A stretch of DNA of 33,886 nucleotides. It comes from Acidobacteriota bacterium (GTDB lineage: Bacteria > Acidobacteriota > Blastocatellia > Pyrinomonadales > Pyrinomonadaceae). The DNA is taken from the NCBI GenBank assembly GCA_003222845.1, contig QHXG01000184.1, forward strand, positions 1-33,886, read 5' to 3'. Each line of letters begins with the position of its first letter. The stretch's first letter is position 1. Shown here one piece after another: positions 16,179-33,886 of the stretch. The notes below the pieces were generated by a model, which worked only from the letters and a program-made list of their open reading frames with translations, had not been told where the DNA came from and did no database searches. A program made the translations under genes and the position numbers.

Positions 16179-16517
16179 CGGCAACTCCCGTCGTCAAAAA
16201 AATACAGTGTGCTCGAGGCGGAACCGGGGTAAAACTCTTACTGCTTTGATTTTCGCGCCGAGGGGCGGCGCACCGTTTCGTCCTTGTAAGCCTAAGAAAC
16301 CGTTAAGGGCGCTCGAATTCCGATATCAAAACCTCTTAGTTCTAATCCGCCAACCGCCAGAAGTGAGGCGGGATCGTCTCCCGCGGGCAGCCTCATCGGG
16401 GAGTTTGATTTGAGGCCGCGCCAACTATAACATCGGTTGTAAGGAAACGGCAACCCGATATTTGTCGAAATTGTAACTAACTCAATTGCCGTATGGCGCG
16501 CGTTTTGCCGACGACCG
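16179..16517. other. Divergent intergenic region between the PBP and histidine kinase genes
   Basis: No supported gene lies in these 339 bases. The region should carry the promoters of both flanking genes. It holds a small palindrome at 16368-16384 (GCGGGA-TCGTC-TCCCGC), like the one at 6648-6664. I could not assign convincing -35/-10 pairs. Confidence 0.45.
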
Positions 16518-18044
16518 ATGGCTTTGTCTAGATTGCTCAATAGTTTCCGCGTGCGTTTACTGCTGTTGCTGGCGACGCTGTTTGTGCTGACGCTGGGAGT
16601 CCAGTACTACGTTAATCGCACTTCGGTTCGAATTAATAACCGACTAATTGTCGAGCAACAACAGGCGATTATGGCGGGCGTCGCGCTTGGCGTTAACAGT
16701 ATTTCAAGTGGCTTGTACCTTGATCAGATGCGCGACCAGGCAAAGCAGCCCCTGCTCGGTGAGCAGGCCGAGCGCGTCAAGAATGTTCTTATCGTTGACG
16801 GAGATGGAAATATTAAAGACAGCCTTGATGAGAATCAGACACCGCGGTTCAATCCTGACAAATCGGTTCGTTATGTTAAGGTCAAAGACATCGCTTTACC
16901 ACCATTGCGAAGCGCCGTCGAGCTTCCTTCCGAAACCGCGCCCTTGCCGGAAGGCATGACCATAGGACAACCCACTGGCGGCGATCCCGGCGCCTTTTAC
17001 TTCCCCGTGACGACCACGAGCGGGCGTCAATACGTGATTGTTGTGCTGGGGTCCAGTCTGATGACAATCTTGAGACGTCAAGCGCGTCAGTCCTTGCTAT
17101 ACACACTTGCAGTTTTACTCGTGACTATTTGTTTGACGGCGATCGTCGTCTGGCGCTTTACTCGTCCAATCAAGTCGCTCTCATTTGCCGCGCGGCGCGT
17201 GGCCGATGGCGACTTTTCTTTCCGAGTTCCGACCAGCAAGCGTCGAGACGAGATGGGAGACCTGACCGAGTTATTCAACGACATGACTGTCAAGCTCGGT
17301 CGCACTCGGGAACTCGAAGCGCAACTTTACAACGCCGAGAAAGCGGTAGTAGTCAGTCGATTGGCCTCGGCAATCGCGCATGAGATCAGGAATCCCCTTA
17401 ACTACATCAATCTGACGCTGGATCATCTGCGCGCGACGTTCGCGCCGGATGATCCGAAAAAGCGGGAAACAATCGACAACTTAACGCGGCAACTCAAATT
17501 GGAAGTCGCGCGCATTAACACTCGGATCACGGAGTTTCTAAACTACTCGCGTCCGGTGAAACTTGAGCCGCGCAAACTGGACCTCGTGGAGATCGCACGC
17601 GACGCCTTGAGCATTTTCGAAGCTCAAGCCGCTGACAGCAATGTCGAAGCGCGGGTGGAAACACAAGGCGAGCCTCCCGCTGTGATCGCCGACCCTGAGT
17701 CGTTGCGCTCCGCGTTAACGAACCTCATCATCAATAGCTTTCAGGCAATGGATGGGAGCGGCGGCAAGTTAAGGATTAGTCTCTCAAGCGAAGATGACGG
17801 ACGAAGCGCTCGCATCGAAGTCAGCGACACTGGTCGGGGGATTGCCGCCGAAGATATCTCGAAAGTGTTCGAGCCCTACTTTTCGACTAAAGAGACTGGC
17901 ACCGGTCTCGGCCTTGCCATCGTCAAGAAAGCCGTCGATGATCATCAGGGAACGATCTCGGTAAAATCGAAACTAGGCGAGGGCACGACCTTCGTAATTA
18001 CCCTGCCAGCCGTTACAGAACCGGGAGCGGTAGCGACCGGTTAA
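16518..18044 (+). CDS. Membrane sensor histidine kinase
   Basis: This 508-aa two-helix sensor kinase has TM1 at about 11-31, a periplasmic sensor of about 150 residues, and TM2 at about 192-214. A HAMP domain follows (FTRPIKSLSFAARRVADGDF), then HisKA with the phospho-acceptor His288 in IAHEIRNPLNYINL. The HATPase has an N box (NLIINSFQAM), G1 (DTGRGIA) and G2 (GTGLGLAIV). It is followed 17 nt later by an NtrC-type response regulator, its obvious partner. The last residues (VTEPGAVATG) are not part of the fold; they are translated from a dispersed repeat that also occurs between genes elsewhere in the window. The ligand is unknown. Confidence 0.93.
   Translation: MALSRLLNSFRVRLLLLLATLFVLTLGVQYYVNRTSVRINNRLIVEQQQAIMAGVALGVNSISSGLYLDQMRDQAKQPLLGEQAERVKNVLIVDGDGNIKDSLDENQTPRFNPDKSVRYVKVKDIALPPLRSAVELPSETAPLPEGMTIGQPTGGDPGAFYFPVTTTSGRQYVIVVLGSSLMTILRRQARQSLLYTLAVLLVTICLTAIVVWRFTRPIKSLSFAARRVADGDFSFRVPTSKRRDEMGDLTELFNDMTVKLGRTRELEAQLYNAEKAVVVSRLASAIAHEIRNPLNYINLTLDHLRATFAPDDPKKRETIDNLTRQLKLEVARINTRITEFLNYSRPVKLEPRKLDLVEIARDALSIFEAQAADSNVEARVETQGEPPAVIADPESLRSALTNLIINSFQAMDGSGGKLRISLSSEDDGRSARIEVSDTGRGIAAEDISKVFEPYFSTKETGTGLGLAIVKKAVDDHQGTISVKSKLGEGTTFVITLPAVTEPGAVATG
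18012..18040 (+). repeat. GTTACAGAACCG repeat, copy within the histidine kinase 3' end
   Basis: A 29-nt unit starting GTTACAGAACCG and ending AGCGACCGG. Near-identical copies, in the same orientation, lie at 24931-24959 and 31052-31080, each just after a stop codon. Here it lies inside the reading frame and supplies the last codons before the stop. Confidence 0.8.
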
Positions 18045-19958: not shown

Positions 19959-20165
19959 ATGAACGAGCGGATATGGATGATCCTCGCGGCTCTCTTGTTG
20001 ATAGTCGCAGCAGTCTTACTGTGGCGCGGCAATTTGTCGGCCGCTTTTGTGATCGCCACTCTCGGTGCAGTCGCGTGGTTTCTAAATTATCGTTCACAAT
20101 TGCGCGCTAACGTCGCAATCGATAGAGAGGACGACGTAGTCGATGAAGAAAGAGATGAAAACTAA
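19959..20165 (+). CDS. Small two-helix membrane protein
   Basis: This 68-aa protein has two hydrophobic helices at about 5-22 and 27-43 joined by RGN. A basic turn (NYRSQLRAN) follows, and the tail is acidic (DREDDVVDEERDEN). I do not recognise a family. It begins 7 nt after the DsbD-alpha-like gene, and its last 23 nt overlap the start of the next gene in another frame, so translation of the three genes is probably coupled. It is likely real because of position and composition. Confidence 0.65.
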   Translation: MNERIWMILAALLLIVAAVLLWRGNLSAAFVIATLGAVAWFLNYRSQLRANVAIDREDDVVDEERDEN

Positions 20166-20715
20166 GACGGCATTCCCGATTCTGCTTCCCCTGCTTTTCT
20201 TTTTCGTTAGCTCAGGAATCGCCATCGGTCGAAGTATGATTGAGCCCTCGGATCAATCTGATGTCCGCGCTGCGGTTCAATCAATCTTCGATCAATTGAA
20301 AGCCGGGCAGTACGAAGCGCTTTATGATTCGCTGCCGTCTTCCTCGCGCTCTCGCGTCGCGCGCGATCGCTTTGCCGCGGCGCTGCAACGTTCGCGAAAC
20401 TTGTATCAACTCGATCGGATTGAAATCGGCGCGCCGCGCGTCTCAGGAAATCTCGCGGTTGTCGATACAGTGATGTACGCGCACATCGCCCCGCCCTTCG
20501 ATGCCGACGGCAAGTTAGTCGTGCAGCAGTATCTGGTGCGTGAAGAAGGAGGCTGGCGCGTGGCCACGGGAGATCGCGCCACGATCGATCGTTTCTTGAA
20601 AAGCAATCCCGCCTTTGCGCGCCGTTTCCCGATCAAGCCGCCGCGCGTTTACATCAAACAGAATGGCCAATGGAATGAATTTGATCTGCGCGGGCTTCGC
20701 CAGCCGTCAAAGTGA
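20143..20715 (+). CDS. Secreted protein with a possible NTF2-like fold
   Basis: This 190-aa protein has an N-terminal signal or anchor (KTKTAFPILLPLLFFFVSSG). The remainder (SDVRAAVQSIFDQLKAGQYE, ALYDSLPSSSRSRVARDRF, VVDTVMYAHI, EGGWRVATGD) resembles small periplasmic DUF4864/NTF2-like proteins, in which an early helix is followed by a curved sheet. This is a resemblance, not a proven assignment. ATG 20143 overlaps the previous gene by 23 nt. It ends the unit that starts with the histidine kinase. Confidence 0.65.
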   Translation: MKKEMKTKTAFPILLPLLFFFVSSGIAIGRSMIEPSDQSDVRAAVQSIFDQLKAGQYEALYDSLPSSSRSRVARDRFAAALQRSRNLYQLDRIEIGAPRVSGNLAVVDTVMYAHIAPPFDADGKLVVQQYLVREEGGWRVATGDRATIDRFLKSNPAFARRFPIKPPRVYIKQNGQWNEFDLRGLRQPSK

Positions 20716-20734
20716 GGATGAGTTATCTTAGTTA

Positions 20735-20959
20735 CTAAGCTACACGGCGTCGAGTTCTTGTTGCGGCACCGGGTTTTGTCGCAGCGTGTTTGCGAAGCCA
20801 GGCGCGCGCTTCGCGGAGATGCTTCGGACTACGCAGGTGTTTAGGTACCAGCGCCCATCCAGGGCCAAGGCCGACGCGTTTCAACTTGCTAAAATCAAGT
20901 TCTTCAGCAAGCGGATCGTCGTCGTCAAAATCTTCAGAACTCTTTCTCTGATTCTTCAT
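20735..20959 (-). CDS. Small partner of the BrnT-like toxin, candidate antitoxin
   Basis: This 74-aa protein has an acidic N-terminus (SSEDFDDDDPLAEELDFSKL) and a basic C-terminus (ARAWLRKHAATKPGAATRTR). Its start lies inside the 3' end of the BrnT-like gene, a 26-nt overlap that is typical of toxin-antitoxin pairs with tightly coupled translation. It does not show the ribbon-helix-helix DNA-binding pattern of classic BrnA that I would expect, so it may be a different antitoxin type. ATG 20959 has GAAGAAAG upstream. Confidence 0.6.
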   Translation of the reverse strand: MKNQRKSSEDFDDDDPLAEELDFSKLKRVGLGPGWALVPKHLRSPKHLREARAWLRKHAATKPGAATRTRRRVA

Positions 20960-21233
20960 ACTTTCTTCGTTCTCTTGGCGTCACTTTACGTGCGCCGATA
21001 ATTCGCGTTCGTTCCCGCCGTGTGTAAGCAACAACCAGCAAGCGGTTCTCATTCGACTCGCCGATGATAACATATCGACTTTCTTGAGAGGAGTGCTCTT
21101 CATCCTTATAAAGAACAAACAACGGATCGTCGAATAACGTAGTCGCTTCGACAAATGAAACGCCATGGTGACTTAGATTGCGACGAGCTTTCGCTTCATC
21201 CCACTCGAAATCACCATAGATGATGTCGCCCAC
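20934..21233 (-). CDS. brnT: BrnT-family toxin
   Basis: This 99-aa protein matches BrnT ribonuclease toxins. It has the N-terminal FEWDEAKARRNLSHHGVSF, FDDPLFVLYKDEEHSSQES, then VIIGESNENRLLVVAYTRRE and RIIGARKVTPRERRKYEE. BrnT folds like RelE and cuts RNA to slow growth until its antitoxin neutralises it. The start is GTG 21233 with GAGG 7 nt upstream; no ATG alternative exists. It lies 22 nt after an excisionase-like gene and overlaps the small partner gene by 26 nt. Confidence 0.87.
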   Translation of the reverse strand: MGDIIYGDFEWDEAKARRNLSHHGVSFVEATTLFDDPLFVLYKDEEHSSQESRYVIIGESNENRLLVVAYTRRERTRIIGARKVTPRERRKYEESEKEF

Positions 21234-21255
21234 TTTTTTGCCTCAGTGTTCGGCA

Positions 21256-21498
21256 TCAGCTCGAAAGCAAATCCTCAAAGGACAACTGCGCATCGTCGGT
21301 GTGGACCCCTTGCGGTCGCGCCACGCGGGGCACATCCAAAGCTTCGCGCACCGCGTCGAGATGGAATCGAATGATGCGTGGCGTCAGGCGCACTGATGGA
21401 ATGCGACGCCTTTGTGCCAGACGACGGACTGTCGATTCACTCACCTGAAGAATTTCGGCGAGCTGTTTCGCAGTTAGGAACTCTTCCCGATCAGACAT
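21256..21498 (-). CDS. Excisionase/MerR-like small DNA-binding protein
   Basis: This 80-aa protein has a winged helix of the 'excisionase family' type: FLTAKQLAEILQVSESTVRR, LAQRRRIPSVRLTP and FHLDAVREAL. Such proteins direct recombinases or act as small repressors. No integrase or attachment site is visible. Its position directly before brnT suggests it regulates the toxin unit instead. It starts one base after the stop of the preceding gene (TGA-G-ATG), so translation is likely coupled. Confidence 0.8.
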   Translation of the reverse strand: MSDREEFLTAKQLAEILQVSESTVRRLAQRRRIPSVRLTPRIIRFHLDAVREALDVPRVARPQGVHTDDAQLSFEDLLSS

Positions 21499-21499
21499 C

Positions 21500-22123
21500 T
21501 CACTTCGGATTCGACTTCAACGTCAACGAGACGCGATAGACGGCAGCGCTCTCGACTTCGACATCTTTCGTCACCGGCTCGGAGCCTTCAGCCTTAAGGG
21601 TGACGCGATATTTGGCAGGCTCAGGAGGAAGTCGGAAAACAAACGCTCCATCCTCGTCGGTAATTCGCGCATCGAGCTTTTGCGTAGAATTCGCGTCGAC
21701 GATTTTTGCCAGCTCGACGCGCACGCCGCGAACGAGCCGGCCACCCTCGCTAAAGACGCTGCCCTTTATGAAGGCAATTGAACCTTCATCAATCTTGAGG
21801 AAAAGATGATCGCCCAGCGCGCGTGTCTGCCCGGCTCTCACTTCAATTTTTTCAATCGAACCGACGGCCAGCCCGGGCTTGCGAAGCGTCACGCCATAAA
21901 TCCCAGGGTTAACGCGAGACAGCACAAAGTCGCCTTTTTTATCGGTTGTCGTGCGCATAATCTCGCGATCTTCCTGACGCAGAATCACGGCTACGCCTGC
22001 AGCCGAACCTCTCTCGACGCGGACTTTTCCTTTGATCGCGCCGTTATTCTTGTCCTGAGCCAGACCAAGAAAAGCAGCAAGAAGCACCAAGACGGATGCG
22101 CAGATCAATTTCTTCGAGTTCAT
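21500..22123 (-). CDS. Secreted protein with two carboxypeptidase-regulatory-like domains
   Basis: This 207-aa exported protein has a signal peptide (MNSKKLICASVLVLLAAFLG, then LAQ). Two beta-sandwich domains follow, each of the carboxypeptidase-regulatory-like type: GAIKGKVRVERGSAAGVAVI with TTTDKKGDFVLSRVNPGIYG, then AFIKGSVFSEGGRLVRGVRV with ITDEDGAFVFRLPPEPAKYR. Such domains act as binding modules on the cell surface. ATG 22123 has GAGG 7 nt upstream and opens the signal peptide. The frame is open much further upstream, but that part lies over the divergent VWA gene and has no signature. It is the first gene of a unit running into the HTH and toxin genes. Confidence 0.82.
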   Translation of the reverse strand: MNSKKLICASVLVLLAAFLGLAQDKNNGAIKGKVRVERGSAAGVAVILRQEDREIMRTTTDKKGDFVLSRVNPGIYGVTLRKPGLAVGSIEKIEVRAGQTRALGDHLFLKIDEGSIAFIKGSVFSEGGRLVRGVRVELAKIVDANSTQKLDARITDEDGAFVFRLPPEPAKYRVTLKAEGSEPVTKDVEVESAAVYRVSLTLKSNPK

Positions 22124-22257
22124 TTGTTTCCTCAACGAAGTTATTACGTTCAGGAACGCATCGCTATGAACGCATTCCTGCTGATGAAGATTATGAAGGC
22201 TTATACAGCAAGCGCCGTTGCCCGCGCTGCATTTGGCGTGAGCAATTGTTGGCGGCG

Positions 22258-22263
22258 TATAAT
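22258..22263 (+). promoter_or_regulatory. Candidate promoter of the VWA gene giving a near-leaderless transcript
   Basis: A perfect TATAAT lies 11 nt before ATG 22275, with TTGGCG about 19 nt further upstream. Transcription would start only a few bases before the ATG, and no Shine-Dalgarno is present, which suggests leaderless translation. Motif evidence only. Confidence 0.4.
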
Positions 22264-22274
22264 TTGCCCTGATC

Positions 22275-23321
22275 ATGTCACCTGCTTTTATCCGATCTCG
22301 ATGGCCACGGCAAGTTTGGTCGGTCGTACTGACGTTTTTCTTAATCGTGTTGGCCCCTTTTCTCGCGCAGGCCCAGGAAGACGCCACCCAAAAACAACGG
22401 CCCCGTCGCGTTCTCCCAAGTGAGAGTGAACCGCAGGATGTCATCAAGGTTGACACGGATCTGGTCCCGATTGACGTCACAGTAACTGATTCGAAGGGCC
22501 GTCTGGTGCGTAATTTGAAAAAGGAGGACTTCAAATTATTCGAAGACGGTATCGAACGCCCAATTGCGTCCTTTAATGTCGAAAAGATTGAAGGCGCGCC
22601 GCGTCCCGTCGCGATTGTTTTCGCGCTCGATCTCTCCGGCAGTATGACTCCGGAAGAAATCGCGCGGGTCAGCGACGCGATGCGCGAGTTCTCAAAACGT
22701 CTCGCAGAGCATCCGGCAGTCTTTGCGGTCATGATCTTTGGCATGCGCGTAAAGACGATCCAGAGTTTTACCGGCGATCGCGAAAAACTTGAACGGGCCT
22801 TCGAACGTCTGGCGCACGAACCGAATGGAATGTCCACGCATACTTATGACGCCGTTGACGACGCCGTGCGCATGCTCGCGCGTCACGCGCCCCTGACGCG
22901 AGCACATCAATCAGTGAAACGCGCCGTCGTCGTAATTACCGACGGCTTTCCGGTGGGCGACGTCGTTTCACCGGAGACGGTGATCGAACGTGCCAATGCG
23001 GCCGACACCAGCGTGTACGTCGTCACCATGCCTTCATACACGCACATGCTCGCGTCCACAAACATGACACCGCTCCCGACGCCTCTGGACGTTAGCGGTT
23101 TGGTTGAGAAGACCGGCGGCCGCAGTGTCTATGCAAACGAAAGAGATCTGGGGCCGTTGTTTCGGGCTATCGCTGAAGAGGTGGCGACCGCCTATGCGCT
23201 ATCGTTTTACCCGCCGATTGAAAAGAGAAACGACGGCAAGTTCCACACAATTAGAATTGAAGGACCGAATGGACTAACGCTGCGTCAAAGCCGACCGGGA
23301 TATCAGGCAGGAAAGCAGTGA
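22275..23321 (+). CDS. Secreted VWA protein of the acidobacterial type
   Basis: This 348-aa exported protein has a signal peptide ending near AQAQ. A short beta region follows (IKVDTDLVPIDVTVTDSKGR, LKKEDFKLFEDGIERPI), then a von Willebrand A domain with an intact metal-ion-dependent adhesion motif (FALDLSGSM; later ITDGFP). This arrangement is characteristic of the 'VWFA-related Acidobacterial domain' family, found in many copies in Acidobacteriota. The role is probably protein binding at the surface, with unknown partner. ATG 22275 is needed to keep the signal peptide although it lacks a Shine-Dalgarno. Confidence 0.93.
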   Translation: MSPAFIRSRWPRQVWSVVLTFFLIVLAPFLAQAQEDATQKQRPRRVLPSESEPQDVIKVDTDLVPIDVTVTDSKGRLVRNLKKEDFKLFEDGIERPIASFNVEKIEGAPRPVAIVFALDLSGSMTPEEIARVSDAMREFSKRLAEHPAVFAVMIFGMRVKTIQSFTGDREKLERAFERLAHEPNGMSTHTYDAVDDAVRMLARHAPLTRAHQSVKRAVVVITDGFPVGDVVSPETVIERANAADTSVYVVTMPSYTHMLASTNMTPLPTPLDVSGLVEKTGGRSVYANERDLGPLFRAIAEEVATAYALSFYPPIEKRNDGKFHTIRIEGPNGLTLRQSRPGYQAGKQ

Positions 23322-24003: not shown

Positions 24004-24924
24004 ATGCTAGTCCCTTTTCAAATGCGTGCCCCTTCGAAGCGCTCGACGACGACGGCGAGCATCCTCATCGTTTCGCTCGCGGCCCTGGGATGGAGCGTGA
24101 ATCGATTGCTGCCGCGCGCGCGGGGCTTCGAAGGGGTGCCCGCCGAAGCAGAAGGCAGGAGGCAGGAGGCAGTAGGCAGTAAGCAGAACAGAAGTCCATC
24201 CGGCTCAGAAACCAACCAATGGTTCCTCTCTGACCGCAAACTGATCGACTCGGATAACGACGGTATCCCCGACGCTGTCGAACTACACACGTTTCAAGAT
24301 CGGGATCACTTCCGGCGGTGGTTCACGGCAATCGCCGAAATGCAGTTCTATCAGTTGAGCGATCAATGGAAGATCGAGCAGCGCGATTGCGCCGGACTCG
24401 CCCGCTTCGCAATTCGTGAAGCGCTGCGGCGTCACGATCGCCTCTGGTTTCAGAAGATGGGGCCGAGCTACGAAACTGTGGCGTCGGATGTTGCCGGTTT
24501 TGATCTCGATCACAATCCGCTCGGAGAAAAAATCTTTCGCACTGATTTCGGATCTTTTAATGAGAGCGATCTGCAAGACGGGAGATTCTCCGAATTCGCC
24601 GATGGCCGAGCGCTCAAGAATTTCAACACAATTTTTGTGAGCCGCGATCGTCGCGAAGCCGAAGCCGGCGATCTGCTTTTCTTCTATCAACCCTGGGTCC
24701 AGAAGTTTCCTTATCACGTGATGATTTTCCTGGGCTCACCGCGCGTGGCGCCAAATGGAGAAAGAGACTGGGTTGTGTATCACACCGGCTCGTCACCGAT
24801 AGACAAGGGGACGGTTAAGAAGGTTGAACTTTCGGTGCTCGAACATCATCCCGATCCGCGCTGGCGGCCGGTAGCCGGCAACAGACATTTTCTTGGGTTT
24901 TATCGACTGAAGATTCTTGAATGA
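24004..24924 (+). CDS. DUF1175 (YfaT-like) secreted protein with an NlpC/P60-like motif set
   Basis: This 306-aa exported protein has a signal anchor at about 19-35. A low-complexity insert follows (about 47-65, encoded by a GGCAGGA repeat), then a calcium-type loop (DSDNDGIPDAVEL from residue 82), then the DUF1175 domain. Within it RDCAGLARFAIREAL (Cys129), AGDLLFF (222-227) and YHVMIFLG (His238) follow the Cys...GDLLFF...His pattern of NlpC/P60 cysteine peptidases. I therefore infer a papain-like hydrolase or amidase fold. In E. coli the related yfaT gene neighbours the macroglobulin gene yfaS. Here too the macroglobulin gene follows, after a 211-nt gap filled with repeats. ATG 24022 is an alternative start. 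Confidence 0.8.
   Translation: MLVPFQMRAPSKRSTTTASILIVSLAALGWSVNRLLPRARGFEGVPAEAEGRRQEAVGSKQNRSPSGSETNQWFLSDRKLIDSDNDGIPDAVELHTFQDRDHFRRWFTAIAEMQFYQLSDQWKIEQRDCAGLARFAIREALRRHDRLWFQKMGPSYETVASDVAGFDLDHNPLGEKIFRTDFGSFNESDLQDGRFSEFADGRALKNFNTIFVSRDRREAEAGDLLFFYQPWVQKFPYHVMIFLGSPRVAPNGERDWVVYHTGSSPIDKGTVKKVELSVLEHHPDPRWRPVAGNRHFLGFYRLKILE
24145..24189 (+). repeat. GGCAGGA tandem repeat inside the DUF1175 gene
   Basis: Direct repeats of a 7-nt unit (GAAGGCAGGAGGCAGGAGGC, then AGTAGGCAGTAAGCAG) are read in frame as AEAEGRRQEAVGSKQ. The segment lies between the membrane anchor and the folded domain. Confidence 0.7.
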
Positions 24925-24930
24925 GCACGC

Positions 24931-24959
24931 GTTACAGAACCGGAAGCGGTAGCGACCGG
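24931..24959 (+). repeat. GTTACAGAACCG repeat, copy after the DUF1175 gene
   Basis: Same 29-nt unit as at 18012-18040 and 31052-31080, with one or two differences. It starts 6 nt after the DUF1175 stop codon. Confidence 0.8.
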
Positions 24960-24998
24960 ATGATATGAAACTCGCTATGAGATTGACGCAAGGTTTTT

Positions 24999-25092
24999 CA
25001 ACCGCAGAGGGCACAGAGGGTCTCGCAGAGGAACGCAGAAATTGGTTTTCCTCTGGCTCCTCTGCGAAAAACTCAGAGTCCTCTGCGGTTAA
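24999..25092. repeat. AACCGCAGAGG...CCTCTGCGGTT inverted-repeat element, copy 1
   Basis: An element of about 94 nt with ends AACCGCAGAGG and CCTCTGCGGTT. Internal GCAGAGG/CCTCTGCG units also pair, so nearly the whole element could fold as a long imperfect hairpin. Related copies lie at 30072-30161 and, inside a reading frame, at 33247-33337. Confidence 0.85.
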
Positions 25093-25135
25093 ATCTTCGT
25101 TTTAGTAACCAGTGTCTCCAAGGAGGCAATCGATC

Positions 25136-28100
25136 GTGTCTGAAACTAATCAACGCCTGCGCAGCTTATTGCTGACCGCGGCGATTTATCTAATCGTCGT
25201 CGCATCCGCTTTTGGCTTCAACGTGATTCGTTCGCGCGCGGCGCGGAACCAACCTGCGCAGCCCGCACCGCCAGAGACGCCCGCGCCGACTGTCGCCAGC
25301 ACTAAGCCCTATTTCTCGCTGACGACGAATCGCACTTATTCGCCAAACGAATCGTCGCGCGTCTGGGCCAGCTATCAAAACATCGATCATCTAGACTTCC
25401 GCGTCTATCGTGTCAAAGACCCGAACAAATTTTTCAAGCAACTCGACGACCCCCATCAGATGGGCGAGAAAGAGAAGGAAGAAATCTCGCAGGGCTATGG
25501 CGTCCGGATTTCTCTGCTCGAACGTACGCACCGATTAAAGTTTTCGCTGTTCACAGCCGTCAGAGATTACGTCCGCACGCATTTGTTGAAACAACACCGC
25601 GAGACTTTCAATCAAAAGTTCCGCAAAGAGACTGAACCGACCCGCACGCCGCTCAACGTAGCCGACTATGCACGCGTGCCTCTGCTCAATCCCGATCAGA
25701 AGGTGAAAGACTGGCGCGAGCCGCTGCCGCCGCTCGAAAACGAATACGACAGCCGCATGGTCACGGTCGGAAAACAGGAACCGGGCGTCTATCTGATCGA
25801 AGCCGTTAATGGCGATCTGCGCGCCTATTCGATCGCCATCGTCAGCAATCTAACGATGATCGAAAAGACGACGAAGGACGGCCAGGTCTTGGTCTATGTT
25901 GTCGATCGTAAGACCGGTGCGCCGCACGAAGGCGTCAGTATCGAAGTCACCAAAAGCAAACAGGTCCTGGCCAGCGGCACGACGGATAAGAGCGGTGTCT
26001 TTAAAACCGAAGTGAAACAGCCAACCGCCAAGGAGGGCGCAGAAGAGAATACCGACGAAGAGGAATCGAATAAGAGCGCATACCTGATCATGGCGCGCGA
26101 GCGCGACAACTTCGTCATTTCCGACGTTGAATCGTTCTATTTCGGCGGTGAGGGCGGCGAAGACGATGCGCTGACGAGCGAGGACGTCACCGGCTACATC
26201 TACACAGATCGTCCAATCTATCGCCCGGCGCAGAAAGTTTATTTCAAAGGCATCCTGCGGCAATGGGGCCGAAACGGCTATCAACTGCTCGACAGCAAAA
26301 CCGTCGATGTAACGATCGAAGATCCGAACAATGGCAAGATTTTTGAGAAGGAATTGCCGCTATCGACGCGCGGCAGTTTCAGCGGCGACATAGACCTCGC
26401 CGACGAAGCGCCGCTCGGCAACTACAACATCACGGCCGCGGTTGGCAACGCGAAATCGAGTGGCTACTTCGAAGTTCAGGAATACAAGAAGCCGGAATTC
26501 AAAGTAACGGTCAAGGGCCCGAAAGACTTTGCCGCCGTCGGCGAGAAAGTGAAGTTCACGGTCAACGCCAATTATTTCTTCGGCGCGCCGGTGACAAATG
26601 CCGACGTTCATTACTACATCTACAAGCAACGTTATTACCACTGGTGGTGGGGCAATGAATCAAACGATGAATTTGACGATGCCGCCGGACCAGAGAACGA
26701 AGGTGGCGACGAAGAAGACTCCGGTTACTACGGCAGCGATCTGGTGACTGAAGGCGATGGCACGCTCACTTCCCGCGGCGAGATGACCGTCGATTTCGAA
26801 GTGCCGAAGCCTGAAGATAAGGACGAGTGGGACTATTCATATCGACTCGAAGCGCAGGTCACTGACGCCTCGCGCCGCGAGATGCACGGCCAGGCATCCT
26901 TCATCGGCACGCGCGGCAAAACAGTCGCCGACGCTTACCCGGAGCGTTATCTCTATTACCAGGGCGACACCGCGAAGATCAGAGTAAAGACTGCTGACTA
27001 TGCGGGCCATCCGGTTTCCGAAAAGGTCACGCTCAAGTTCATCGAACAGAAATACGAGAAGGTCGAGAAGGACGAGGAGTACAACGGCTACAAATACAAG
27101 AACTACGATTACATCCTGCATGAACGCGAACTGGCTTCAGCAGACGTGAACACTGACAGCCAGGGCAATGCAGCTTACGATTTCACGGTGCCATCGCCCG
27201 GCAGCATTTATGTCAAAGCCATCCTCAACGAAAACGGAAAAGAAATCGTGAATCGCGGCGGTTCGTTCTGGGCGCCTGATAAGAAAGGCGAATGGTCCGA
27301 TTTTGAATATCGCGACTATGACGAAAAGTCGATCAAGCTCGTACCCGACAAAAAATCTTATAAGCCCGGCGAAACGGCTCACGTGCTCGCGATGCTGCCG
27401 GCCGATAAGGCTCATCTGTTGGTAACGACCGAACTATCGAATGTCATGACCGTGCGAGAAATTGATTCGGCGGGCCGCAGCGTTGTGATCGACGTGCCAA
27501 TCGAGCAACGCTACGAACCGAACGTCTACCTCGATGTGTCTTTCGTGAAAGACAGCGACATGTATAGCCAGAGCCAACTCATCGTCGTGCCCGCGCGCGA
27601 CAAGATGCTCAAGCTCGACATCGTACCGAACAAGAAGGAATTCAAGCCGCGCGACGTGGCCTCATATACAATCGTGGCGCGGAACGATGATGGCTCGCCC
27701 GCCGCTAACGCGGAAGTTAGTCTCGGCATTGTCGACGAAGCGATCTACAGCATCCAGGCGGAAACTGCCCGTAATATCAAGCGCGAGTTCTATGGCAAGC
27801 GCTACGACGAAGTGCAGACGAGTCTCGCGATTCATTACAAGTTCACGGGCTTTGCCGGCGACAAGCCGGTCGATCTCGCGAAGAACAAATCTGCTTATCA
27901 ACTCGCTGATTTCAAGAACGAAAGTGCTTACGCTGAACCCACCATTCGTCGCGAGTTCAAAGACACAGCCTTTTGGCAGCCGGATGCGGTGACCGGTGGC
28001 GATGGCAAAGCCACGGTAAATTTCAAGCTGCCGGACAACTTAACTACTTGGCGCGCCACCGCGCGTGCGGTCACCGCCGACACCCGCGTCGGCTCAGCCG

Positions 28101-30064
28101 TGCAGAAAACGATCGCGCGCAAAGATGTGATCATGCGTCTGGAGATGCCGCGCTTTCTGACTGAAGGGGACACGGTGACTATCTCAGGCGTCGTGCACAA
28201 CTTCCTCAAGAGTGACAAGTCGACGAAGATCTCGCTCGATCTTAACGGCGCGCAGTTGCTTGACTCGCCGAGCGAAACTGTGACGATTAAACAAAACGGC
28301 GAGCATCGAGTCGATTGGCGCGTGCAGGCCAATCAAGTCGGCAAGTTGACCCTACTGGCCAAGGCGCTTACCGATACTGAGTCCGACGCGGTCGAGATGA
28401 CGATGGAAATCGTGCCGCACGGTTTGAAACAGACGGTCGGCAACACGACCACGTTGACGCAGAACGATGCGGACCAAACCTTCTCGCTCGATCTTTCAGC
28501 GAATCCGGATAGTCAAGCACGGAACCTGCGCATTGAAGCATCACCGTCGCTGGCCGGAACTCTGTTTGGCGCACTCGACTATTTGACGAGTTTTCCATAC
28601 GGCTGCACGGAACAGACGATGTCCAGCTTCCTGCCCAATGTGATCGTCGCGCAGACCTTAAAGGACGTGCCGACCGCGAAGATTCGCGCGTCGAATGATC
28701 TCGATAAGAAAGTTCAGCGCGGATTGGATCGTCTGTATGCTTATCAGCATGACGATGGCGGTTGGGGCTGGTGGAAAGACGACAAGAGCGATCCATTCAT
28801 GACGGCTTATGTGGTTGACGGTCTAACACTCGCGAGCAAAGCCGGCTATCAAATCGATCTCGGGCGGCGCGATCAAGGTCGCGAGAAACTCGCGTCTCTG
28901 CTCAACGCCGGTAAGAACGACAACGGTAATCCGATCGATGATGAAACCAGGAGCTACATGATCTATGCCTACACCGAAAGTGGTGACAGCGATGGTCATT
29001 ATCTCGAAGCGCTTTATGCGAAGCGCGGGAGTCTCGGGCCTTACGGCCGCGCACTGCTGGCGCTCGCTTTGCACCAGCGCAAAGATGGACGCGCGAAAGA
29101 AATTGCCGGCGCCATTGCCGGCTCAGCTCAGACTGACGAATTCGAAGCGCACTGGCAAACCGCACGCGTCAACGATTATGGCCGCAACGTCTATCTTGAC
29201 GCGGAAGCCACGGCGCTTTCATTGAAAGCTCTGTCGCAAATCGATCCGAACAACGCGCTGTTGCCGAAGGTCGCGCGCTGGTTGGTAAAGAATCGGCAGA
29301 ACGGTTATTACTGGCTTTCGACGAAAGAAACTGCCTTCGCGATCTATGGCCTGACTGATTATTTGAAAGTCAGTCACGAACTCTCGCCCGATTATTCGTT
29401 CGAGATTTATTTGAACGGCGCGCAGGTCTCTCAGCAACACGTCGGCGCGGGCGAGGCGACAAGCGCGCAGGACTTTGTGATCACGAAGAAGGCGGGTGAA
29501 GTCAGCAACAACAATCAGATTCGCGTGGTTAAGCATGGCCGCGGCGCGCTATATGTTTCGGCTTCGGTTCAATACTTTACTGCGGAAGACAACGTCGCCG
29601 CTCAGTCGTCGGGGAATTTGAAGATCTCGCGCGAGTACTTGCGTCTGCATGTCACCGAAAACGCAGACGGAAAATCGAGCTGGAAGATCGAACCGATGTC
29701 GGGAGAGTTGCGCTCCGGAGATCTGATCGTCGTGCGTCTGCATCTCACCGGCGCGCGGGCACAGTACCTGATGATCGAAGATCCGATTCCTGCGGGCGCC
29801 GAGCAGGTCGCGCAGGTCAGCGGCATCAACTTGAATTACTCGACCGGACAATGGACCGATTGGTACAGCGCGCGCGAGTTCCGCGATAACCGCACCGCCA
29901 TCTTCGTCGATTACTTTAATGGCGACGCGACGTTCCAATACGCGATGCGCGTTGAGGTGCCGGGTGAGTTTCGCATCGCGCCCGCGCGGGCTGAGTTGAT
30001 GTATCAGCCGACGATACAAGCCAATACCAGCAACGATCGGTTGCGGATTTTGGATAAGAAGTGA
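25136..30064 (+). CDS. Bacterial alpha-2-macroglobulin with thioester motif
   Basis: This predicted periplasmic protease trap of 1642 aa has an N-terminal membrane anchor at about 10-28 with no lipobox. A series of macroglobulin (beta-sandwich) domains follows, including the family signature YIYTDRPIYRPAQKVYFKGI. The bait and alpha-2-macroglobulin regions come next (FKDTAFWQPDAVTGGDGKAT, FKLPDNLTTWRATARAVTAD). The thioester motif GCTEQ (1156-1160; Cys1157 and Gln1160) opens an all-helical thioester domain (HDDGGWGWWKDD), and a C-terminal receptor-like domain ends the protein. An intact thioester implies covalent capture of attacking proteases. GTG 25136 is chosen over the in-frame GTG 25112 because AGGAGG lies 9 nt upstream of it. 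Two acidic Asp/Glu/Gly-rich inserts (about 300-345 and 510-540) are unusual. Confidence 0.93.
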   Translation: MSETNQRLRSLLLTAAIYLIVVASAFGFNVIRSRAARNQPAQPAPPETPAPTVASTKPYFSLTTNRTYSPNESSRVWASYQNIDHLDFRVYRVKDPNKFFKQLDDPHQMGEKEKEEISQGYGVRISLLERTHRLKFSLFTAVRDYVRTHLLKQHRETFNQKFRKETEPTRTPLNVADYARVPLLNPDQKVKDWREPLPPLENEYDSRMVTVGKQEPGVYLIEAVNGDLRAYSIAIVSNLTMIEKTTKDGQVLVYVVDRKTGAPHEGVSIEVTKSKQVLASGTTDKSGVFKTEVKQPTAKEGAEENTDEEESNKSAYLIMARERDNFVISDVESFYFGGEGGEDDALTSEDVTGYIYTDRPIYRPAQKVYFKGILRQWGRNGYQLLDSKTVDVTIEDPNNGKIFEKELPLSTRGSFSGDIDLADEAPLGNYNITAAVGNAKSSGYFEVQEYKKPEFKVTVKGPKDFAAVGEKVKFTVNANYFFGAPVTNADVHYYIYKQRYYHWWWGNESNDEFDDAAGPENEGGDEEDSGYYGSDLVTEGDGTLTSRGEMTVDFEVPKPEDKDEWDYSYRLEAQVTDASRREMHGQASFIGTRGKTVADAYPERYLYYQGDTAKIRVKTADYAGHPVSEKVTLKFIEQKYEKVEKDEEYNGYKYKNYDYILHERELASADVNTDSQGNAAYDFTVPSPGSIYVKAILNENGKEIVNRGGSFWAPDKKGEWSDFEYRDYDEKSIKLVPDKKSYKPGETAHVLAMLPADKAHLLVTTELSNVMTVREIDSAGRSVVIDVPIEQRYEPNVYLDVSFVKDSDMYSQSQLIVVPARDKMLKLDIVPNKKEFKPRDVASYTIVARNDDGSPAANAEVSLGIVDEAIYSIQAETARNIKREFYGKRYDEVQTSLAIHYKFTGFAGDKPVDLAKNKSAYQLADFKNESAYAEPTIRREFKDTAFWQPDAVTGGDGKATVNFKLPDNLTTWRATARAVTADTRVGSAVQKTIARKDVIMRLEMPRFLTEGDTVTISGVVHNFLKSDKSTKISLDLNGAQLLDSPSETVTIKQNGEHRVDWRVQANQVGKLTLLAKALTDTESDAVEMTMEIVPHGLKQTVGNTTTLTQNDADQTFSLDLSANPDSQARNLRIEASPSLAGTLFGALDYLTSFPYGCTEQTMSSFLPNVIVAQTLKDVPTAKIRASNDLDKKVQRGLDRLYAYQHDDGGWGWWKDDKSDPFMTAYVVDGLTLASKAGYQIDLGRRDQGREKLASLLNAGKNDNGNPIDDETRSYMIYAYTESGDSDGHYLEALYAKRGSLGPYGRALLALALHQRKDGRAKEIAGAIAGSAQTDEFEAHWQTARVNDYGRNVYLDAEATALSLKALSQIDPNNALLPKVARWLVKNRQNGYYWLSTKETAFAIYGLTDYLKVSHELSPDYSFEIYLNGAQVSQQHVGAGEATSAQDFVITKKAGEVSNNNQIRVVKHGRGALYVSASVQYFTAEDNVAAQSSGNLKISREYLRLHVTENADGKSSWKIEPMSGELRSGDLIVVRLHLTGARAQYLMIEDPIPAGAEQVAQVSGINLNYSTGQWTDWYSAREFRDNRTAIFVDYFNGDATFQYAMRVEVPGEFRIAPARAELMYQPTIQANTSNDRLRILDKK

Positions 30065-30071
30065 TGGGGAA

Positions 30072-30161
30072 TTAACCGCAGAGGATCGCAGAGGTTTCCG
30101 CAGAGGTCACGGAGGAAAACTTTGCGTCCTCTGCGAAATCCTCCGCGTTCTCTGCGGTTAA
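30072..30161. repeat. AACCGCAGAGG...CCTCTGCGGTT inverted-repeat element, copy 2
   Basis: A 90-nt element starting TTAACCGCAGAGG and ending TCTGCGGTTAA, beginning 7 nt after the macroglobulin stop. It is closely related to copies 1 and 3 and able to fold on itself. Confidence 0.85.
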
Positions 30162-30200
30162 AAACGTTCTTTCGTCTAATCAAGTACTTAAGAGGCAGAT

Positions 30201-31049
30201 ATGATCACAGCAACTTTGCAGACTTGGCTGGACAGCGCGCGGGCAGTACTGAGAGACGCCCGGGCCCTCGCAATCTTCGCCGGCCTGTACGCCCTATTAC
30301 TCGTTACCTTCTATATCTTCATCGCCACGCGCGAAGCGACGGTCTGGCAGGTGCTGATCACTTACGCGTTCCTGGTGCTGATGCCGGCCGAGTTCTTTGT
30401 CTTTCAGTCGGCGATCGTCGAGCATGCGCGCATCGGAAAGTTTTCTTGGCGACAGATCGTTCGCGGGGCCATCAAGCTCTTTATCGCGACGATTCCCATC
30501 GTTGTGATCGCGTTGGTATTTTGGGCTCTGCTCGACAAGTTTCAGCTTCGCTATCCCACTCCAAAAGCTGCGCTGGCCGAATCACTGCGCGGTGCGCCTA
30601 AACCGCAGCCACTTCATTGGCCGACAGTGATTTTTGCGACCATCCGATTTCTAATATTTGCCATCGCGTTGCCGCTGGCTACGATTCATCTTTGGGCCAG
30701 AGTTAGCGCCGGTGACATTCGAACATTGTTCAGCGGCGGCGCGGAAGCGAGCGTGAGACGAATCGGTGGATGGCTCGCGCGCGCCTTCGCCTCCGATTCA
30801 GTTTTGATTTACGCACTTGGCGCGATCCTGTTTGCTTTCATACCTTACGCGGTTATCTTCATCAAGATTTCTCCCAAAGGCACAAAGACCGACTTCGCGG
30901 TGTTCATCGCGCAGCTCTTGATTGCTTTCTGTTTCTCGCTGATCGGTTGGATCGTCACCGTCACGGCCCTCTCAAAGCTGAACACCCAAACATCAATAGC
31001 CGATGTCCCTCAACGCGCGCCGAGCACGCCGGCGGAGGCGCCCGCGTGA
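30201..31049 (+). CDS. Six-helix integral membrane protein of unknown function
   Basis: This 282-aa protein shows six hydrophobic helices, at about 23-45, 52-75, 92-116, 140-165, 196-220 and 230-255. The tail is short, Pro/Ala-rich and cytoplasmic or periplasmic (RAPSTPAEAPA). I do not recognise a family, and no catalytic motif is evident. ATG 30201 has AGAGG 6 nt upstream. It lies between the macroglobulin gene and the transpeptidase/SpoIID gene on the same strand, so it likely serves the same envelope process, for example as an anchor or transporter for one of them. Confidence 0.72.
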   Translation: MITATLQTWLDSARAVLRDARALAIFAGLYALLLVTFYIFIATREATVWQVLITYAFLVLMPAEFFVFQSAIVEHARIGKFSWRQIVRGAIKLFIATIPIVVIALVFWALLDKFQLRYPTPKAALAESLRGAPKPQPLHWPTVIFATIRFLIFAIALPLATIHLWARVSAGDIRTLFSGGAEASVRRIGGWLARAFASDSVLIYALGAILFAFIPYAVIFIKISPKGTKTDFAVFIAQLLIAFCFSLIGWIVTVTALSKLNTQTSIADVPQRAPSTPAEAPA

Positions 31050-31051
31050 CA

Positions 31052-31121
31052 GTTACAGAACCGCGAGCGGTAGCGACCGGATCATTTTCCATTTGTTATT
31101 TGACATTTGGCATTTGGCCAT
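31052..31121 (+). repeat. Two repeat families side by side before the transpeptidase fusion gene
   Basis: A GTTACAGAACCG unit (31052-31080) is followed directly by a single CATTTTCCATTTG-type arm (31081-31121). The same pair in the same order, but interrupted, lies at 4773-4877. The arm's usual inverted partner is missing here. Confidence 0.8.
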
Positions 31122-31140
31122 TTCAATCGGACGCGATCAC

Positions 31141-33886
31141 GTGACTTTCGCAAACTTCCAGATTCGAAACATCGATTACACATCACGCAGGCACTCGCTT
31201 GTTCTGACCTGCGCATGCGTAGCACTTTTGTTTCTCAACTCTCCTCGCCCAAAAGATCGTTGGCGGATATTCGACTGGCCAAATAAATCGCCAGCGCTCC
31301 GTGAAGCAGCGATCGATTCCGCATTGCAGCAGACTGCAAACGACGCGCTCGGCCAACGCGAAGGCGCAATCATCGTGATGGATGCGCAGACTGGCCGCAT
31401 ACGCGCGTTGGTGAATTCGCAACTTGCTTTCGGTCAAGCGTTGATGCCCGGCTCGACGATGAAACCTTTCACCGCATTAGCTGCTCTACGTGCCGGATTG
31501 ATTGATAACAATTCACGCACAGTTTGTCCGGGCCGCTTTACCGGCCGCGACTTTTCACTTCCCTGCGTCCATGAAGATCATTTGCCGCCATTCACACCAT
31601 CGCAAGCCATCGCATATTCGTGCAACTACTACTTCGCCACGCTCGGTCAAAGGCTGGGCCGAGACAAGCTAGTCGAGACCGCGCGGCAGTTTGGATTCGG
31701 CCAAACGGCGGGAATCGAAGAGACTGCTGGAACGCTGCGGCCTTGCGAGACCGGCAACAACACGCGGATTCGCGAGAGCGCTCACGCTTCGGAGCAAAGC
31801 GATTGCGACGCGCGCGAAGCGATTGGTGAAAGCGATCACATTCAAATCACGCCGGTCCAATTGCTGATGGCCTATACCGCGCTGGTGAATGGCGGGCGTT
31901 TATGGCAACCTCGAATTAGCCGCTCCGAACCCATCGAACGATCACGAATCGACATATCTCAACAACATCGCGCGATCATCATCGAAGGCATGCGCGGCGC
32001 CGTGCGCTACGGTACGGCAAGGAACGCGCACCTTGATTCGCTCCCGCTTTACATCCTGGGCAAGACTGGAACCTCGCAGCCCGCGAAAGGCTTTCGTTCC
32101 AATGGTTGGTTCGTCGGCTTTGGTGCGCATGCGCCGGCGAACTCATCTACGGAGCCGGCTCCAAACGAAATCGATCTTGCTGTGCTCGTTATGGTCGCAC
32201 ACTCTCACGGTGCCGAAGCTGCGACGTTGGCGAAACCCATATTTGAAACGTTTGCCGAAAGATTCGAAGACGTTCACCACAGAGACACAGAGGACCACAG
32301 AGACAGCACAGAGACAAATTACGCAATCCGCAATCCGCAATCCGCAATCGTCAGCGTTCATCTGGTCACTGAGAACGTCACGAAGGAAATGTCTTTGGAA
32401 GACTACGTCCTCGGCGTGATGCGCGCGGAAGGAAGCATGGAAACTGAGCCCGAAGCGCTGAAAGCTCTAGCAATCGCGATTCGCACCTACGCTCTCAAGA
32501 ATCACGGACGCCACGCGAAAGATGGATACGACTTTTGTTCGACCACGCACTGCCAGCGATTTGTCAGCGGAGACCCGACCGTAAGGGAGGGTGCAGACGC
32601 GAGGGGAAGCACCCTCCCTGACGGTCGGATTTCCGCCGCCGTTCGCACGACCGAGGGCCAGATCCTCATTGACGAACGCGGTCAACCTGTCGATTCATAC
32701 TTTGGCGCCTCGTGCGGCGGCGAGACGGCGAACATTGGGACGCTCTGGGGCAAGACTCCGCCTGCGTATCTACGCGGTGTGCATGACGAGTTCTGCATCA
32801 GCGGCCCACATGCAAACTGGACCGATGTGATCTCTCGCGCCGATCTATTGCGGGCGCTGCAAAGCGATGCTCGCACCAATGTGGGTTCAAGACTCGATCA
32901 AATCACTCTCAGCAAGCGCGATGAAACCGGACGTGCAGAAGTCATCACGCTCGACGGCGAACATCGAAAGATCGTGCGCGGATGGGATTTCAAGATAATT
33001 GTGGGCCGCGTCCTGGGATGGAACCTGCTGAAGAGTTCCCGATTTGAAGTCTCTCGCCACGGATCGAATTTCATGTTTCGCGGCAGCGGCTTCGGCCACG
33101 GCCTGGGTCTTTGTCAGGAAGGCGCGCACGTGATGGCGCAACGCGGGGCAAACTATCAGCGGATTCTGGAGAAATATTTTCCGGGCACCCACGTGGGCGC
33201 AGAACATCGTGTTGCATCGGTGCAGCGCGGATACGAATCGACTGCTTTAACCGCAGAGGGCGCAGAGGTTGTCGCAGAGAAAAGCAGAGGTTTTCCTCAG
33301 CGTCCTCTGCGAAATCCTCTGAGCCCTCTGCGGTTAAGTAAACCCCTCGTCGATCATGCCAGCCAAAAAGTACTCACGAGCGAACATTTTCGCGTTACCT
33401 ATCCCAAGGGTGTCGACCGTCGCGATGCCGATCAAGTCCTGAGCACTTTGGAATCCGCCCGCGCTGATTATCTCCATCGGGCGAATGCGGCCTCAGTTTC
33501 GATTGCTAACATCCCCACGCTTGAAATCCGCCTCAACGAAAGCACTGGTGATTTCACCGCGCGCACCGGTCAACCCTTGTGGGCCGCCGCGGCGACGAAG
33601 GGAAATCGCATCGAGCTGCAACCACTCGCTCTGCTGAAGCACCGTGGCGTGCTCGTCCCCACGCTGCGCCACGAACTAGCACACGCGGTAATCGATACTG
33701 TCAGTAACAATCGCGCGCCTCGTTGGCTGGAAGAAGGATTCGCGATTTATCTCGCTGGCGAAGGCGCAACGATCTCACACTACAGAATTCCAAGCTCCAT
33801 ATCACCCACCGAACTTGAAAGACGACTCGAACGACCGAGTTCGCAGCAAGACATGCGCGCTTTGTACACCGCTGCCTACTTCAATG
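31141..33886 (+). CDS. Transpeptidase - SpoIID/LytB - gluzincin peptidase fusion (C-terminus outside the window)
   Basis: One frame stays open from GTG 31141 to the window end, at least 915 codons. A membrane anchor (about 21-34) is followed by a penicillin-binding transpeptidase domain at about 50-385 with GSTMK (Ser105, Lys108), YSCN (160-162) and KTGT (308-311). A SpoIID/LytB domain at about 400-705 has MSLEDYVLGVMRAEGS with the expected catalytic Glu430, RTYAL, ASCGGETAN and GSGFGHGLGLCQEGAH. SpoIID enzymes cut glycan strands from which stem peptides have been removed. A third domain from about 740 has HELAH (844-848) and WLEEGFA (Glu865), a gluzincin metallopeptidase of the peptidase-MA type. 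No glycosyltransferase domain is visible. Repeats are translated in the linkers and in one SpoIID loop. GTG 31141 lacks a strong ribosome site. It follows the macroglobulin and membrane-protein genes. Confidence 0.85.
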   Translation, partial: MTFANFQIRNIDYTSRRHSLVLTCACVALLFLNSPRPKDRWRIFDWPNKSPALREAAIDSALQQTANDALGQREGAIIVMDAQTGRIRALVNSQLAFGQALMPGSTMKPFTALAALRAGLIDNNSRTVCPGRFTGRDFSLPCVHEDHLPPFTPSQAIAYSCNYYFATLGQRLGRDKLVETARQFGFGQTAGIEETAGTLRPCETGNNTRIRESAHASEQSDCDAREAIGESDHIQITPVQLLMAYTALVNGGRLWQPRISRSEPIERSRIDISQQHRAIIIEGMRGAVRYGTARNAHLDSLPLYILGKTGTSQPAKGFRSNGWFVGFGAHAPANSSTEPAPNEIDLAVLVMVAHSHGAEAATLAKPIFETFAERFEDVHHRDTEDHRDSTETNYAIRNPQSAIVSVHLVTENVTKEMSLEDYVLGVMRAEGSMETEPEALKALAIAIRTYALKNHGRHAKDGYDFCSTTHCQRFVSGDPTVREGADARGSTLPDGRISAAVRTTEGQILIDERGQPVDSYFGASCGGETANIGTLWGKTPPAYLRGVHDEFCISGPHANWTDVISRADLLRALQSDARTNVGSRLDQITLSKRDETGRAEVITLDGEHRKIVRGWDFKIIVGRVLGWNLLKSSRFEVSRHGSNFMFRGSGFGHGLGLCQEGAHVMAQRGANYQRILEKYFPGTHVGAEHRVASVQRGYESTALTAEGAEVVAEKSRGFPQRPLRNPLSPLRLSKPLVDHASQKVLTSEHFRVTYPKGVDRRDADQVLSTLESARADYLHRANAASVSIANIPTLEIRLNESTGDFTARTGQPLWAAAATKGNRIELQPLALLKHRGVLVPTLRHELAHAVIDTVSNNRAPRWLEEGFAIYLAGEGATISHYRIPSSISPTELERRLERPSSQQDMRALYTAAYFN
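32276..32350 (+). repeat. CACAGAGA and CAATCCG direct repeats, translated
   Basis: The ACCACAGAGACACAGAGG-type string (32276-32315) is followed by tandem CAATCCG units (about 32321-32350). They are read in frame as HHRDTEDHRDSTETN and YAIRNPQSAI, between the transpeptidase and SpoIID domains. Confidence 0.75.
32575..32628. repeat. 20-bp stem palindrome inside the SpoIID domain coding sequence
   Basis: The left arm 32575-32594 (CCGACCGTAAGGGAGGGTGC) and the right arm 32609-32628 pair over 20 bp with one mismatch around a 14-nt loop. The element is 54 nt, exactly 18 codons, read as PTVREGADARGSTLPDGR, which looks like an inserted surface loop. Confidence 0.85.
33247..33337. repeat. AACCGCAGAGG...CCTCTGCGGTT inverted-repeat element, copy 3, translated
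   Basis: This 91-nt copy, with ends TTAACCGCAGAGG and CCTCTGCGGTTAA, lies wholly inside the fusion gene and carries no stop in that frame. It encodes a linker (starting LTAEGAEVVAEKSRG, ending LSPLRLS) between the SpoIID and gluzincin domains. Confidence 0.88.

Follow-up and report, generated by a model that had tools for sequence, protein, structure and literature searches.

The last 10 kb of a 33,886-nucleotide stretch of Acidobacteriota DNA (the window, one whole contig: QHXG01000184.1 of GenBank assembly GCA_003222845.1, class Blastocatellia) carry four genes, all on the + strand, which encode in order a DUF1175 protein, an alpha-2-macroglobulin with a CTEQ thioester, a six-helix membrane protein and a fusion of a transpeptidase, a SpoIID domain and a zincin-like metallopeptidase. 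This content, order and single strand, proposed in a first-pass annotation of the window, were confirmed by open reading frames (ORFs) and domain matches. The four genes form a variant of the yfaTSQ/magCDE operon of Escherichia coli and Pseudomonas aeruginosa and are homologous to its core. The genes and domains are as follows (window coordinates):

24004..24924, +, DUF1175 protein (MagC/YfaT homologue), NlpC/P60-like; Pfam PF06672, 1.1e-63; MagC structure 7bk8_A, profile E 4.4e-73
25112..30064, +, alpha-2-macroglobulin; MG2, bait region, A2M, TED and bMG10; thioester CTEQ at nucleotides 28604-28615
30201..31049, +, six-helix membrane protein, unnamed family; 282 amino acids, six predicted hydrophobic helices
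31003..33885, +, ORF of the transpeptidase - SpoIID - zincin fusion, YfaQ/MagE counterpart; runs off the contig end
31363..32121, +, transpeptidase domain, like penicillin-binding protein 2 (PBP2); SxxK (S151, K154), SCN (206-208) and KTG (354-356), ORF numbering
32374..33195, +, SpoIID/LytB domain; E476 and GFGHGLGLCQ motif
33355..33885, +, zincin-like metallopeptidase domain; HELAH (890-894) and WLEEG

Products of the four genes

The ORF of the fusion, for which GTG 31141 is the likely start, gave Pfam matches to Transpeptidase (4e-41) and SpoIID (5e-20) and contains HELAH...WLEEG close to its end; it is truncated by the contig end, with about 18 residues missing judging from relatives. The transpeptidase part is PBP2/MrdA-like (158.8 bits for MrdA versus 28.3 for PBP1C) and has all the motifs of class B penicillin-binding proteins (SxxK, SxN and KTG), and Pfam and profile scans of the fusion detected no glycosyltransferase domain. 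The SpoIID part contains the catalytic Glu and the GxGxGHGxGLxQ region. The peptidase part of the window protein was below threshold in Pfam (SprT-like 0.026, Peptidase_MA_2 0.049), the best relative reaching 7.6e-5. Among fusion relatives SCN and KTG were found in 39/40, the Ser and Lys of SxxK and the SpoIID Glu were also kept, and so was HExxH in almost all of those long enough to reach that region. The SpoIID lytic transglycosylase (5i1t, 4rwr) and the class B protein MrdA belong to the same domain families; in the fusion, unlike in these separate proteins, both are joined in one chain with a zincin and lie beside a macroglobulin.

The DUF1175 protein has an N-terminal hydrophobic anchor, and its residues C129, H238 and H260 are invariant in relatives; this Cys-His-His set, the active site of the NlpC/P60 type, was kept in 34/34 and throughout the alignment. 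The MagC structure 7bk8 is that of a DUF1175 homologue with the same NlpC/P60-like fold, from which the window protein differs by about 80 extra N-terminal residues. MagC is described as NlpC/P60-like and as interacting with peptidoglycan (Zouhir 2021, as cited in PMC10318531).

The macroglobulin ORF comprises 1650 residues, with a likelier start at GTG 25136, preceded by AAGGAGG. The protein has an N-terminal anchor, with neither a lipobox nor a Cys near the N-terminus, and no other MG2 match was found elsewhere in the same genome. The CxEQ thioester is present in 35/35 macroglobulins of the class and in all 20 others read from the phylum. By profile score the window protein is nearer YfaS (281 bits) than YfhM (171 bits); in the macroglobulin tree the YfaS and YfhM branches are very long, and the tree does not discriminate between the two. 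In most proteobacterial YfaS-type proteins (n=80) the thioester Cys is replaced by Gly, and CVEQ occurs in 14, so that "type II" is not equivalent to "without thioester" and a thioester is no mark of YfhM. The proteins keeping CVEQ are YfaS/MagD-type (L117, L125, L128 and 11 other Pseudomonas loci), contrary to the type II definition. Some relatives (loci L190, L191, L193, L194) have an additional macroglobulin, about 2000 residues long, that carries CTEQ and is sister in the tree to the macroglobulin of the set. Neither DUF1175, the membrane protein nor a PbpC homologue was found near it in the stretches examined, and its assignment to a YfhM-PbpC pair was dropped for want of the latter.

The six-helix protein matched no known family in Pfam, NCBIfam and a scan of 17 members. 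It is conserved in the phylum, adjoining the macroglobulin, and profile comparison shows that its versions in different classes are homologous (89-94% probability over about 200 columns). Judged from its sequence, it appears to represent a new family that is part of the conserved set.

Relation to the mag and yfa operons

The gene order is yfaA-yfaT-yfaS-yfaQ-yfaP in E. coli and YfaP-like, YfaA-like, DUF1175, macroglobulin, YfaQ-like, YfaP-like in Pseudomonas. The latter order identifies MagC as the DUF1175 protein (confirmed by 7bk8), MagE as the YfaQ homologue, and MagA and MagF as DUF2135 proteins; MagF, considered as a possible counterpart of the fusion, was accordingly dropped in favour of MagE. 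Both "type II" operons (magABCDEF of P. aeruginosa and yfaATSQP of E. coli) share with the window a DUF1175 gene immediately 5' of the macroglobulin gene on the same strand, and, downstream of the latter in the same strand and order, a protein combining transpeptidase, SpoIID and zincin folds. They differ from the window set, which keeps the thioester and intact transpeptidase motifs and adds the six-helix protein. Neither DUF2138 (MagB/YfaA) nor DUF2135 (MagA, MagF/YfaP) was detected in any of the 48 class genomes searched (0/48 each), the E. coli control being positive for both. The set is classed as a variant of the type, and not as a member, because it fails three defining features (lack of the thioester, DUF2138 and DUF2135).

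The domains of YfaQ were examined by profiles and by AlphaFold models, one of YfaQ built from 35 homologues and one of its C-terminal part folded separately (predicted local distance difference test scores 87.0 and 88.5). Residues 20-246 of the model adopt the class D beta-lactamase/penicillin-binding protein (penicilloyl-serine-transferase) fold, with OXA-1 as the best match (Z 14.8, root-mean-square deviation 3.2, 201 residues aligned). The C-terminal part has a SleC/SpoIID fold (Z 14.0, 13.5 and 12.5, with 128-144 residues aligned), and its last 100 residues resemble a small zincin of the selecase/Wss1 kind (Z about 6, 85 aligned). The SpoIID domain of YfaQ is also recognised by Pfam (7.2e-6), and its profile comparison with that of the fusion is significant (94.9%). 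A cysteine pattern around SCN/SCG (C...C...SC) is common to the two proteins and supports their kinship. The window fusion is thus the counterpart of YfaQ/MagE, with the same three domains in the same order at the same operon position.

The active-site motifs are partly changed in the YfaQ/MagE proteins: Ser-x-Trp-Lys is found in 82/82, SxN is replaced by SCG in 81/82 and KTG by KTW in 82/82, while the SpoIID Glu is kept and HEYLH is invariant in 81 proteins. From SCG and KTW, the transpeptidase part of these proteins is probably inactive or changed. That YfaQ has parts resembling a transpeptidase and SpoIID was already noted in a 2025 study (PMC12282094); the metallopeptidase part of YfaQ and the link to a version with intact motifs are new here.

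Conservation and surroundings of the locus

Genomes were grouped by reading the match tables, with full-length matches and contig-end fragments both counted. Of the 147 class genomes, the macroglobulin of the set type and the fusion were found together in 44, each alone in 2, and neither in 99 (Fisher P 1.6e-32, uncorrected for phylogeny); all four exceptions (G026, G118, G132, G146) correspond to contig ends. For each adjacent gene pair, order and strand were identical in all measurable loci (33, 32 and 33). This check of co-occurrence and gene order supports the functional link that the first-pass annotation had drawn between the four genes; the outcome it had named as speaking against the link, no conserved neighbourhood in relatives, did not occur. 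The membrane protein and fusion genes are at most 4 nucleotides apart, or overlap, in 18/33 loci; the intergenic gaps are longer in the window because repeat elements fill them:

24931..24959, +, REP-like (repetitive extragenic palindromic) interspersed repeat, between the DUF1175 and macroglobulin genes
24997..25093, no strand, hairpin repeat of the TTAACCGCAGAGG type, in the same gap
30072..30161, no strand, hairpin repeat, second copy, 3' of the macroglobulin gene
31052..31080, +, REP-like repeat, in the gap from the membrane protein gene to the fusion gene
33247..33337, no strand, hairpin repeat, in frame in the SpoIID/metallopeptidase linker of the fusion

The REP-like repeat (GTTACAGAACCGxxAGCGGTAGCGACCGG) is present in the window at 18012-18040, where it encodes the end of a sensor kinase, and at the two positions listed. 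Genome-wide, its 18-base core has 175 copies, which are often arranged in inverted pairs with a spacing of 40-75 nucleotides (REPIN-like), and the Y1 transposase (PF01797) has 15 matches. For the hairpin repeat (TTAACCGCAGAGG...CCTCTGCGGTTAA) the genome has 46 exact 13-mer matches; one copy lies on either side of the macroglobulin gene, and the third is inserted in frame in the fusion gene.

In the phylum, DUF1175 scored above the cut-off in 54/396 genomes, and a match was also obtained in Thermotoga maritima. Other classes retain the order DUF1175, macroglobulin and membrane protein, and the fusion gene lies there on the opposite strand in convergent orientation. One family has, in place of the fusion, two genes with a 4-nucleotide overlap (transpeptidase, and SpoIID-zincin); in another, a SpoIID/zincin-like protein with no recognisable transpeptidase follows the macroglobulin set on the same strand. 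In three loci of a single family (L105-L107), the protein after the macroglobulin has its zincin-like and SpoIID-like regions swapped, with no recognisable transpeptidase and no domain called by Pfam. No fusion-type protein was found in the stretch read for L094, L098 and L103. Plasmid searches gave no full-length fusion, only separate penicillin-binding proteins and SpoIID proteins, and the scan of viral contigs only SpoIID-domain relatives; in the scan of genome contigs made for the wider distribution, Gammaproteobacteria only were among the matches. PADLOC returned 0 matches for the four proteins. Promoter and terminator scans predicted fewer sites than in shuffled sequence and were not used.

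Elsewhere in the window, a second penicillin-binding transpeptidase-like protein with long low-complexity ends is encoded at 14481-16184 (-), separate from the four-gene set. The region 5' of the set (20143-23321) encodes a 190-amino-acid secreted protein, a carboxypeptidase-regulatory-like protein on the other strand and a VWA protein; these three neighbours recur only in several members of the same family (L053, L055, L057, L067, L071, and L070 in part).

Proposed function and alternative readings

We consider it probable that the locus is a relative of the mag/yfa-type operons with complete catalytic motifs, in which a protease trap is coupled to the cutting and re-joining of the cell wall at the inner membrane. 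The role that fits best is envelope defence or repair, because the mag operon, via MagD, protects P. aeruginosa against the wall-targeting type VI secretion system (T6SS) effectors VgrG3 and Tae1 (PMC12663445). Judging from the N-terminal hydrophobic segments and the six-helix protein, all four products would be located at the inner membrane, facing the periplasm. On entry of a foreign protease or wall-cutting toxin, the macroglobulin would be cleaved in its bait region and would bind the intruding protease covalently through the thioester. The DUF1175 protein would dock on peptidoglycan, SpoIID would trim damaged glycan, the transpeptidase would carry out re-crosslinking, and the zincin may process or activate a partner. 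The six-helix protein may fill the anchoring place held in Pseudomonas by MagB (DUF2138). We infer here how trap and wall repair are coupled, in which order the steps occur and what the zincin does. In P. aeruginosa, the inner membrane holds a complex of MagD with MagA, MagB and MagF (PMC5764988); deletion of yfaQ in E. coli gives wide cells and groups with wall and envelope mutants, the deletions of mepS, mepK and nlpI among them (PMC12282094). A joint periplasmic trap-and-repair system was proposed earlier for YfhM-PBP1C (work cited in PMC5764988).

Several points weigh against the coupling of trap and wall repair. MagE was reported to lie in the cytoplasm, without stable binding to the Mag complex (PMC5764988), and the DUF1175 family has been called inactive despite its retained Cys-His-His residues (PMC10318531). 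When the transpeptidase and peptidase parts of YfaQ and the fusion are compared alone, the profile alignments are collinear (SxxK-SxN and HExxH) and the scores not significant, so that their homology would be argued from modelled fold, synteny and motifs; the zincin fold match is weak and comes from the YfaQ model. Pseudomonas and E. coli have changed motifs in the transpeptidase part, so the protection by MagD there does not require a standard transpeptidase. The convergent fusion of other classes cannot belong to one transcript with the set.

The first-pass annotation had presented the locus as rebuilt, the YfhM/PBP1C and YfaS/YfaT themes meeting in it. Such a hybrid would account for the CxEQ thioester and the neighbouring penicillin-binding protein, both shared with the "type I" YfhM (ECAM)-PbpC pair, but is very unlikely: the transpeptidase is MrdA-like, lacks a glycosyltransferase domain and is fused to SpoIID and a zincin; the macroglobulin is nearer YfaS by profile score and lacks the lipobox that YfhM has (LAGC); the thioester is not specific to YfhM given the CVEQ-bearing YfaS-type proteins; and the fusion, rather than being a newcomer, has a counterpart in the corresponding position of both the E. 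coli and the Pseudomonas operon. That the four genes are unrelated neighbours lying together by chance is hardly conceivable, in spite of the opposite strand of the fusion in other classes, given the co-occurrence statistics, the constant order in 33 loci and the same kinds of partners in Proteobacteria.

A housekeeping envelope machine is a less likely but serious alternative, in which peptidoglycan would be remodelled during growth or the assembly of an envelope structure, with the macroglobulin as a scaffold or protease-sensitive regulator. It agrees with the presence of three wall-acting folds against one trap, with the cell-width effect of the yfaQ deletion, seen without any attack, and with a set that is chromosomal and shared by several classes of the phylum. 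The thioester of all the class and phylum macroglobulins read argues for covalent capture instead, as does the protection by MagD for a defensive role; the set is moreover absent in about two thirds of the class and hence not essential. A proteolytic relay, in which the zincin or the DUF1175 cysteine hydrolase would cleave the macroglobulin during its maturation and the wall domains merely anchor the complex, is improbable. It would fit the loss of the 100-kDa MagD form in magB and magC (DUF1175) deletions, the extra high-mass MagD forms in the magE deletion (PMC5764988) and the invariance of HEYLH even where transpeptidase motifs have changed, but it leaves the retained transpeptidase and SpoIID catalytic residues of the fusion unexplained.

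The reading of trap coupled to wall repair has a more tentative extension, which we regard as speculative though worth stating: macroglobulins of this lineage could be more than protease sponges and serve as the sensor of a complex that repairs damaged peptidoglycan, in which bait cleavage leads to covalent capture and activates a cut-and-paste enzyme made of a single chain (SpoIID and transpeptidase). This would be the ancestral state, and the Mag/Yfa systems of Pseudomonas and E. coli a partly decayed, pseudo-enzyme form.

The window presents in plain sequence a macroglobulin partner, a transpeptidase-SpoIID-metallopeptidase with intact motifs, that is hidden in the E. coli and Pseudomonas proteins. 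It offers a direct, testable mechanism for the protection conferred by mag, in which protease trapping would be linked with repair or remodelling of the wall, and makes magE, beside magD, the mag-operon gene of interest next. The thioester-based split of macroglobulins into type I and type II does not track operon type. The active-site motifs kept here and partly lost in model bacteria suggest that this immune-like macroglobulin system acts on the cell wall.

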